Source of the DNA: Scenedesmus sp. ARA3
Lineage: Eukaryota; Chlorophyta; Chlorophyceae; Sphaeropleales; Scenedesmaceae
Length of the DNA stretch: 64,000 bases
Direction of reading: 5' to 3'
Assembly: GCA_004335835.1 (NCBI GenBank)
Contig: RWJK01001954.1
Coordinates: 21,981-85,980 of the forward strand
Under the pieces are notes generated by a model, which saw only the letters and a list, made by a program, of their open reading frames with translations, searched no databases and was not told the origin of the DNA. Positions 1 through 62,600 of the stretch are shown here, one piece after another (position 1 is the stretch's first letter; every line of letters starts with the position of its first letter). Made by a program: the position numbers and the translations under genes.

Positions 1-845
1 CTTCCAGCAGCATGCATGCATGCCACTTCTAACATGTCACACTCGTACTGCATCTTTCACCCACTCCCCGCCACCAGGTGTACTGCTGCTGGAGTGGCCT
101 GGCCAAAGTCCGTGCAGAGCCGACCAGCAGCATGAATGCCTCGTCTGACCTGTAACGCCTGCACTGCGTTTTCATTCACTCCCCTGCACACCAGGTGTAC
201 TGTTGCTGGAGTGGCCTGGCCAAGGTCCGTGCAGAGCCCTTCAGGCGTGGCCTGCGCTTCAGGGCCCAGCAGCCCGGCGAGTGCAGCACAACCTCGGACA
301 GCGCAAGCCTGCTGTGCGATGACCTGCACAGGCTAGGGTCCAGCAGGGCTCTTGTTGACGCTGGGGTTTTAGTGACGCCGCAGCTGGAGGTGTCTGCGCA
401 GCTGAGTAACACGGTGAAGCAGGCGAACCGCATGCCGTATGTGCGGCGCAGCAGATGGGTGGAGGTGCAAGGGGCTGGCAGCCCGTGGCAGTTGAGTGGA
501 GAAGAGCTAGCTAAGAAGGCATACCCCTCGCTTGCATGCTGCGGGGATCCATTGAGAGGATCAAACGGTAGTGTTGCTGCAGTGACCGACCCAGCAGGAG
601 CTACAGGTAGTGGTGTGGGAGGTATTAGTGGTGCGGCTGGTGGTGAGGGGGTTACGTATAGCTTTGGGGGGCAGCAGCAGCAGCCGCATCAGCAGCTGAG
701 TCTGGAGCAGCTGCTGGTGATGGCGGCTGCTGGTGGCAGCAGCGCGCAGCAGCAGTGCCAGGCGTACAACCTGCTGGAGAGGAACCATACCGAGCTCTTC
801 ATGCAGCAGCAGCAGCGGCGACCTGCTGCTGTTGGTTTAGCATGA
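1..845 (+). CDS. 3' end of a CAP59/CMT1-like mannosyltransferase (partial)
   Basis: Only the C-terminal part of this gene is in the window. The last exon runs from an acceptor at 192-194 (exon from 195) to a TGA at 843-845. Its start reads VYCCWSGLAKVRAEPF, then RGLRFRAQQPGEC, then SLLCDDLHRLG. This Cys-Trp-x-Gly, 'P-x-x-x-G-LRFR', 'Cys...L-x-x-D-x-x-R-LG' order is what I know from the end of the CAP59/CMT1 alpha-1,3-mannosyltransferase family, a Golgi glycosyltransferase of polysaccharide or glycoprotein synthesis. After about 60 recognisable residues the protein continues into a Ser/Gly/Gln-rich tail (QQQQPHQQ near 675) with no domain I know. The exon start is duplicated upstream at 78-121. 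The family call rests on a short stretch, so another GT family with a similar end is possible. Upstream exons lie outside the window. Confidence 0.6.
78..239 (+). repeat. Junction-spanning tandem copy of the glycosyltransferase last-exon start
   Basis: The acceptor plus about 44 bp of exon (78-121) repeats at 195-239, a period of 117 bp, with very few differences in the exon part. The first copy breaks off after the codons for V-R-A-E-P. The intron parts (CCAGCAGCATG at about 4, 124) also repeat, so the duplicated unit includes intron. Confidence 0.85.
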
Positions 846-1480
846 TTGCCATAGCTATGCGGTTAGGGCAGCTGCACAAGTTGCATGCAGTGCTGAAGGC
901 ATCTGCCGATTCTACGCGCGTGCACGCTCGACGTAGCATGTTGTTCCAGGTGCAACCTGTCTGGTTCTAGTGTCTGCCATGAACGTGCCCGTGAGGAATT
1001 GCATTCTTTGGTTGCGGCTGACAGCCGGCTGTCAGCTGCAACCAAGTGGCGCCTTTTAACTGTCCATGGCTCTGCCACGTATTCGCTTGAGCTACTGGGT
1101 ATTAAACATTACTCTGCACGATGTACATGAACATCATGTTCATTAAACGGTTGTGCATTTACCTGCCTAATTCTGTCATATTACATGATTGCAGGCTGCT
1201 CACGACAGTTAAGTACTGTAGGGGAAAGGCAGGCCGACTTTGAGCCATATAGCTCATGATCAGCAAGACAAAACAGCCACGCCCCGTTATGAAACTGTAC
1301 TGCATTTGAATCCATATACTTTGCTGTATCATCATCATGGCTTGATGAGTAACATGATGATGATGATACTTTGCTAAGTACACCTGCTGCCCACGTCACG
1401 AGTTCTCATGGCCCGTTATCAACTTGGACACCAAGCCGTGGCACTAACTCCACCCTTCTAAAAGCACAGTCCACGTCACT
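846..1480. other. Intergenic, with two small foldbacks
   Basis: No gene is visible. There is a loopless palindrome at 1008-1045 (19-bp arms, one mismatch), 163 nt after the glycosyltransferase stop. A smaller inverted repeat at 1326-1369 (arms of TCATCATCATG type) is flanked on both sides by TACTTTGCT. Confidence 0.7.
1008..1045. other. 38-bp near-perfect palindrome
   Basis: Left arm 1008-1026 and right arm 1027-1045 are reverse complements with one mismatch and no loop. It lies in the probable 3' flank of the glycosyltransferase, so an RNA hairpin near the transcript end is possible. No function is shown. Confidence 0.8.
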
Positions 1481-62244: not shown

Positions 62245-62600
62245 GTGTGTCTTGTCTGATTACGGCTCGGCGTGCACTGCGGCGGCCGTGGCGTGTGTCT
62301 GTGTGCATGCGAGATGGAGCACATCCCGCCCAAGGCCCGCGTGTACTAAGTGTGTTGATGGCAGGTTTGTGTCGTGTGTGTGTAGTGTGTGTGCAGTGAG
62401 GAGCTCCTGTTTCGCGCAGTTCACCAGCATCGCCCCCTGGAGCACATCCCGCCCAAGGCCCGCGTGTACTAAGTGTGTTGATGGCAGGTTTGTGACATGT
62501 GTGTACTGGCTGTGCTGTGAGGAGCTCCTGTTTCGCACAGTTCACCAGCATCGCGCCATGGAGCACCTCCCTCAAAGGCGCGCGTGTTCTCAATGTATGG
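62208..62600 (+). repeat. SDH1 stop-codon segment, four copies
   Basis: [15 protein letters not shown] (real stop 62242-62244) recurs with TAA near 62346 and 62470, and decayed near 62590. The downstream units also share GTGTGTTGATGGCAGG and GAGGAGCTCCTGTTTCGC. Confidence 0.92.

Follow-up and report, generated by a model that had tools for sequence, protein, structure and literature searches.

Short tandem duplications straddling exon-intron borders, in which the end of an exon, its splice site and the adjoining intron recur together as a direct repeat, were found to be abundant on both strands of the Scenedesmus sp. ARA3 sequences surveyed here. The results suggest that such duplications keep arising, get spliced away and lengthen introns; we refer to the spare copies as echoes. 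The window, the whole stretch of 64,000 nt that was analysed, is part of one contig from an assembly of 87.3 Mb in 1567 contigs (GC content about 57%), and was compared with 20 pieces of 10 kb taken from contigs across the same assembly, six of them partly replaced by N, giving about 230 kb of readable sequence together. Gene models were self-trained from the sequence with a minimum intron of 55 bases and yielded 299 predicted introns in the window and the 20 pieces; the splice signals learned from this sample were CAG/GTGNG at donors and TGCAG/ at acceptors, the slash marking the splice site. Genes of the window include those for an SWR1/SRCAP-type remodeller, CK2 alpha and the succinate dehydrogenase flavoprotein (SDHA). 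Runs of CAG or CTG are also very numerous across the window, encoding long Gln and Ala tracts and occurring in introns as well. One model at 2597-14674 (minus strand) joins ARM repeats, a papain-like protease and RCC1 repeats, and may correspond to two or three genes, and the model at 47495-56253 (minus strand) places a papain-like cysteine protease gene together with CK2 alpha. A further gene of this protease type, judged by resemblance, lies in comparison piece L014.

Self-BLAST of the window returned 66 near self-hits (direct repeats less than 1500 bp apart), and that of the 20 other pieces 102 hits with a period below 600, five of the pieces being without any. Echo frequency varies among loci (chi-square p = 2e-5, with some small cells); L001, L002, L009, L011 and L014 hold many predicted introns yet lack near repeats. 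In total, 90 local duplication clusters were identified in the roughly 230 kb, of which 76 lie at an exon border and 7 within introns, with 6 in intergenic DNA and 1 inside an exon. Among the 76, two are located at a CDS end or stop codon, not a proven splice junction (62206-62608 and 43582-43959), and one of the intronic clusters (59517-59692) shares 11 bp with the end of exon 59431-59527 and is in fact its donor echo. The initial annotation of this DNA, which had asked for such a count of junction hits against exon- and intron-internal ones, described the duplicated unit as always spanning the junction; this holds for 76 of the 90 clusters, the intronic, intergenic and exon-internal ones being exceptions. 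A comparable density in intergenic DNA, which it had named as evidence to the contrary, was not seen, the 6 intergenic clusters comparing with 12.4 to 14.3 expected.

The excess of clusters at borders was compared with three null models. Placing one segment per cluster at random gave expectations of 25.4 junction, 27.0 intronic, 14.3 intergenic and 23.3 exon-internal, a comparison that is not like for like, since a single segment was classified in this control but every copy in the observed clusters. When a single repeat unit was randomly placed for each of the 86 clusters of period at least 90, the corresponding expectations were 26.4, 24.9, 14.0 and 20.8, against 75, 4, 6 and 1 observed. Under the most conservative control, in which whole clusters were moved and classified by the same rule, 40.7, 15.8, 12.4 and 21.0 were expected (junction p = 2e-14), and with the exon-internal class left out 76 of 89 clusters lay at junctions against 59% expected (p = 1e-7). 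By the same control, the excess was recovered separately in the window (34 of 39 clusters touching a junction, 16.2 expected, p = 5e-9) and in the other loci (42 of 51, 25.0 expected, p = 2e-6). Classifying one randomly chosen copy per real cluster yields only 37.5 junction, 39.5 intronic, 9.5 intergenic and 3.5 exon-internal, as expected if one copy of each pair is intronic. BLAST clusters were enriched at borders under every control run, less strongly so in the like-for-like comparison. An additional proposal, that short-period tandem repeats avoid junctions and long ones seek them, was withdrawn: the contrast in raw TRF counts (4 of 76 arrays at junctions for periods of 13-89, 17 of 22 for periods of at least 90) follows from array size, with 7.0 (p = 0.32) and 13.0 (p = 0.13) expected when arrays were moved whole, and the long-period arrays exceed the one-unit null (p = 2e-4).

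Echoes are carried by 57 of the 299 predicted introns, whose median length is 429 bp against 234 bp for the rest, and the detected duplicated segments make up 17.0% of intron bases. Junction-anchored alignment produced 82 rows, 71 resolved and 11 unclear, and after removal of one resolved row with a core below 25 bp, 70 junctions were analysed. In the window, 31 junctions were resolved (16 acceptor and 10 donor on the plus strand, 1 acceptor and 4 donor on the minus strand), spread over six of the self-trained models, and five further rows were unclear, perhaps adding two junctions at the exon starts or ends 23318 and 25109. The earlier estimate of about 45 junctions in seven genes is thereby upheld as to abundance on both strands and reduced in number, although weaker cases may fall below our threshold; its observation that echoes are absent from the LWA-repeat gene (44526-46539) and from the two secreted-protein genes was confirmed for the small one (36143-37385) and for the initial part of the second (39496-42027), no repeat pair being present there. 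Across the window and the 20 pieces, 59 echo-like pieces had been called as exons by the self-trained gene finder, and gene annotators should be warned that echoes are readily mistaken for exons.

In the SWR1 gene (plus strand), a donor-side array at 30572-31317 comprises the real exon end (to 30632) followed by six echoes with a period of about 114; the intron parts of echoes 1-5 are alike, but neither the first spacer nor the last resembles them. Also on the plus strand are an acceptor-side array of three echoes preceding the real exon start at 32282 (31851-32333, period 129-144), and another of two echoes preceding the exon that begins the SWR1 helicase (20817-21150). At 21478-21775, an acceptor-side echo and real exon start have a period of about 160, the echo corresponding to an insertion relative to SRCAP, and a donor-side array at 21828-22084 consists of a real exon end and two echoes (period 105). 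The acceptor-side echo at 23307-23472 shares 52 bp at 100% identity (period 114), its row being unclear and outside the 70 analysed junctions, and the donor-side echo of the exon ending in GTPLQ (23521-23685) has a period of 102 and a non-homologous spacer. Further plus-strand examples are a donor-side array at 24218-24715 with a real exon end and two echoes, the last one decayed; acceptor-side echoes at 24809-24971 (period 117), 27485-27630 (period 94) and 29165-29329 (47 bp at 98% identity, period 118, spacer not homologous); and three exon-end copies in a donor-side array at 16567-17125 with a period of about 250. In the same region as SWR1 we also noted a larger direct repeat (22065-22262 and 23055-23251, about 990 bp apart, 83% identical) and, at 22270-22420 in an SWR1 intron, an inverted repeat whose arms (CAGTCACG...CCCGACAGC and its complement) are each about 50 bp long, which by eye resembles a small hairpin or MITE.

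On the minus strand, CK2 alpha possesses an acceptor-side echo at 53552-53790 (period 131) and a donor-side echo at 53276-53455 (period about 120, with one gap in the exon part), and the ARM-repeat gene a donor-side echo at 10499-10728 (period 140). SDHA, on the plus strand, contains acceptor-side echoes at 58251-58417 (period 119) and 60245-60416 (97% identical, period 110, spacer not homologous), and an acceptor-side array of two echoes and the real exon at 58831-59146 (period 123). Its 3' end carries an array across the stop codon (TAA-GTGTGT; 62206-62627), a CDS end and not a proven splice junction, and a copy of the CDS end of a hydrolase gene was similarly found downstream of its stop codon (43582-43959, plus strand). 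An intergenic array at 37991-38649, with a period of about 180, is a counter-example to an exclusive location at junctions.

Repeat length peaks at 110-130 bp, and the smallest period per cluster falls at 95-130 in 42 of the 90 clusters, the range given as usual by the initial annotation, with 25 at 131-170, 16 at 180-260, 6 below 95 and 1 above 260. Eleven of the 90 clusters have a smallest period of 215-255. Of the 71 resolved units, 55 have a period of 85-170, and 54 of these contain 27 bp or more of exon. Most of the 54 comprise 30-75 bp of exon and 40 bp or more of intron. Intron parts below 40 bp occur in 3 of 54 units, against 33% under random placement on the same exon map, and exon parts above 75 bp in 5 of 54, against 39%; units are therefore placed more tightly around the junction than random (KS p = 2e-6 and 1.6e-5). 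In comparison piece L016 (1596-2400), seven exon-end copies were observed whose intron parts seem to alternate between two types, forming a higher-order repeat of about 245 bp, and this alternation may explain the double period. An array in L019 (8684-9227; 98.6% identical, period 180) runs into the contig end, and long echo arrays may therefore break or shorten an assembly.

The consequences of echoes for the encoded proteins were examined by comparison with homologs. The spliced SDHA model aligns collinearly with the solved mitochondrial SDHA over residues 2-566 (936 bits) with no echo insertions, its only departures being steps of one to four residues, one of which is a 3-base exon placed by the gene finder in the echo at 59664. 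When a 436-residue stretch of the predicted SWR1 with echoes included was aligned to human SRCAP, the insertions were found to contain the echo exons. In CK2 alpha, one predicted insertion corresponds to the echo at 53276-53334, and a nine-residue insertion and a Gln-rich one are not accounted for by any echo. Where homology allows a check, in SDHA and part of SWR1, the echoes are thus predicted to lie outside the protein, which is in keeping with the earlier proposal that the spare copy is spliced away.

Comparison of each exon with the nearest echo of the 70 junctions identified 175 synonymous, 190 nonsynonymous and 6 nonsense changes, with frameshifting gaps at 7 of the 70, and changes in echoes are largely unconstrained. 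The synonymous share is nevertheless 0.48 for exon-echo pairs against a neutral expectation of 0.40 (p = 0.0016), two coding copies being expected to give about 0.78, and 0.40 against 0.27 for echo-echo pairs (p = 1e-7). Echo-echo pairs differ by 0.103 in the exon part and 0.189 in the intron part, the reverse holding in some pairs; as echoes were picked by exon likeness, this may account for part of both the lower exon-part difference and the synonymous excess, to which codon-position bias of the mutation model may also contribute. Synonymous excess and lower exon-part difference together call for some constraint or repeated recopying.

Decay within the duplicated unit is also uneven. The intron part aligns better than 95% of cross-locus control pairs at 34 of 70 junctions and fails to do so at 36. 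At 10 of the 26 junctions whose exon cores share 94% identity or more, the intron part is no better than 95% of these controls, and with a core identity of 92% or more the intron part is no longer alignable at 16 of 35. Plain tandem duplication followed by uniform decay does not account for these exon cores of 92-99% identity beside unalignable intron parts and was set aside; an exon piece of 97% identity next to unrelated intron is not the product of a single duplication and even decay. Insertion of exon fragments at random intron positions was likewise rejected, as acceptor echoes have a pyrimidine-rich context of their own, read from the sequence listing. A search of the sample for the source of the spacers gave no clear one outside their own locus among the matches listed. 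From these patterns we infer mostly non-coding evolution accompanied by recopying or exchange between exon and echo cores. The neutral route to intron growth put forward earlier is therefore supported by the length of echo-bearing introns and the share of intron bases that echoes occupy, but not in the simple form of neutral duplication and uniform decay.

Doubled segments were also recovered in ORFs of other assemblies. Three protein searches (314, 1150 and 82 homologs found) revealed a doubled segment in 5 of the 322 listed homologs, a figure that gives no rate because a protein search reveals only echoes that stay in one open frame. In P0001, which comes from a JGI metagenome contig of 32,845 bases, a 12-residue segment is followed by 23 other residues and then a 16-residue segment, placing an echo at the same exon start as that at 23307 in the window, with copies 105 bp apart versus 114 and an unrelated spacer; inheritance of echoes at one junction across species is a tentative possibility. 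In P0255 the doubled residues are VLMQLRKV, with which the window exon at 25109 ends, and P0245 doubles 13 residues just short of the same exon end, the doubled segments of P0020 and P0067 being less clear.

Taken together, we consider the probable origin of echoes to be recurrent short tandem duplication at junctions, tolerated as the spare copy is lost in splicing and followed by exchange among the exon cores. DNA stretches straddling an exon-intron border, mostly of 95-170 bp or about 215-255, would be duplicated repeatedly in tandem, presumably in the course of a repair event. One copy would stay joined to the rest of its exon and be spliced as before and the other become intron, so that the protein would be unchanged, the duplication tolerated and the intron enlarged; duplications inside exons would mostly be lost. 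Arrays could then form from existing echoes through unequal exchange, and the exon-derived cores would be kept alike by exchange with one another as the intron parts diverge. Splicing is likely to impose bounds: few echoes include over about 75 bp of exon and few units contain under about 40 bp of intron, perhaps because such copies would be mistaken for real exons or would be without the signals that a real site needs.

The preference for junctions might alternatively arise at the level of mutation, with transcription, splicing or chromatin at borders promoting breakage and duplications that have a unit of about 118 bp with the border at its centre, in excess of what filtering or decay would produce. 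A single random unit is almost equally likely to fall on a junction or within an intron (0.51 of the two for the junction), yet 75 and 4 clusters of period at least 90 were observed, one of these four intronic clusters having a true TRF period of 59 and one being the donor echo of exon 59431-59527 described above. Because decay alone favours detection at junctions, exons and echo cores were masked, and 27 of the 76 junction clusters were still found by their intron part (27 versus 4, p = 4e-5); the centring of the unit on the junction also favours this reading. However, TRF arrays of period at least 90 show no significant junction excess when moved whole (17 versus 13.0), arrays anchored on a conserved exon may stay alike for longer, selection on splicing could shape the geometry, and intergenic arrays exist (6 of 90), leaving targeted mutation a possible but doubtful account. 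We hold just as tentatively the broader idea that exon-intron borders of this algal lineage are mutation hotspots that give rise to tandem copies about 118 bp long with the splice site in the middle, with echo cores evolving for long in concert with the coding exon and outlasting their intron flanks.

A role of echoes as alternative or decoy splice sites or as regulated exons, kept by selection, seems improbable. At 25 of 41 donors and 17 of 29 acceptors, the splice site of the nearest echo comes within 1 bit of the real one. Echo sites score a little higher than neutral decay would give (p = 0.025 for donors and 0.059 for acceptors), and in the array at 30572-31317 the real exon and its nearest echo differ by 5 synonymous and 0 nonsynonymous changes, in line with the raised synonymous share overall. 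Exchange between cores would also explain the good splice sites, and nonsense and frameshift changes, nonsynonymous differences as common as synonymous ones, exon parts that are mostly fragments of 30-75 bp and an SDHA protein without echoes all speak against function. An assembly that merged two diverged haplotypes or strains in a single contig, with switches between them at exon borders, would account for like exons with unlike introns and for breakpoints at borders, but is a very unlikely source: the assembly contains one high-identity SDHA locus (two other contigs hold distant matches at 36-56% identity), arrays contain up to 7 diverged copies, echoes carry frameshifts and stops, and the synonymous share is well below that of two coding copies. 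That other assemblies also show doubled segments, in one case at a junction shared with the window, likewise makes an artefact of this assembly unlikely. Least credible of all is the creation of copies by introner-like mobile elements, which would fit the involvement of introns and the many affected; a search for similar introns across loci among the 299 (E<1e-5, simple repeats and neighbours within 2 kb left out) gave 0 pairs, and echoes match their own neighbouring exon.

How introns grow and are gained has long been asked, and traceable events are few; a review (PMC3443670) puts unambiguous gains by tandem duplication at 188 for the species it covers. By extrapolation, and provided that the sample is typical, 76 junction clusters in about 230 kb of 87 Mb would imply that junction duplications traceable in this one genome number in the tens of thousands, in which case their rate, size rule, tolerance by splicing and fate become measurable.

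Echoes are of the same event class as known internal tandem duplication, and their density, geometry and exon-core persistence were not found described: a literature search, with most subscription papers outside its scope, returned no title or abstract describing junction echoes. Tandem duplication of gene-internal segments, exon and intron pieces included, is common in eukaryotes, as Gao and Lynch reportedly showed in 2009 (work cited in PMC3443670 and PMC4974935). Like such internal gene duplications, echoes are head-to-tail copies within a gene, but here about one fifth of predicted introns hold a copy that straddles a junction, the favoured unit being about 118 bp, and the copies for the most part lengthen introns already present instead of making new ones. 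The intron part, which in a whole duplicated unit should be recognisable in both copies, is so at 34 of the 70 junctions and not at the other 36. Ordinary minisatellites have locations unrelated to exon borders; on this point BLAST clusters are border-enriched under every control, and TRF arrays of period at least 90 are so against the one-unit null but not when moved whole. The Rogers model, in which duplication of AGGT inside an exon creates a new intron with both sites from the copies, was rejected, with 1 of 90 clusters exon-internal and the copies lying in flanking introns.

Tandem or mutually exclusive exons (PMC9013439) share with echoes the presence of exon-sequence copies beside the original; echoes are mostly exon fragments with one splice site, some with stops or frameshifts, and the complete copies with both sites and an open frame expected of such exons were not found (30-75 bp and one site; 7 of 70 frameshifting, 6 nonsense changes). 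Introners likewise involve a genome-scale change of introns (PMC9860276), and were rejected as a class for want of dispersed similar introns among the 299 compared. In Drosophila, PMC2891723 reports novel introns by sliding or tandem duplication, with 25 novel positions in 31 genes; exonic sequence is duplicated and one copy is intronic in both systems, but the Drosophila case concerns intron position, not arrays of junction copies. Finally, the duplicate in a potato RdRp gene (PMC4974935) spans an intron-exon border and so takes in the 3' splice site, the branch site and the polypyrimidine tract; it stems from one recent event, through which a new intron arose and exon sequence was gained. 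Splice signals are thus part of the duplicated DNA in both potato and alga; in contrast, echoes lie within existing introns and the predicted SDHA protein is unchanged.
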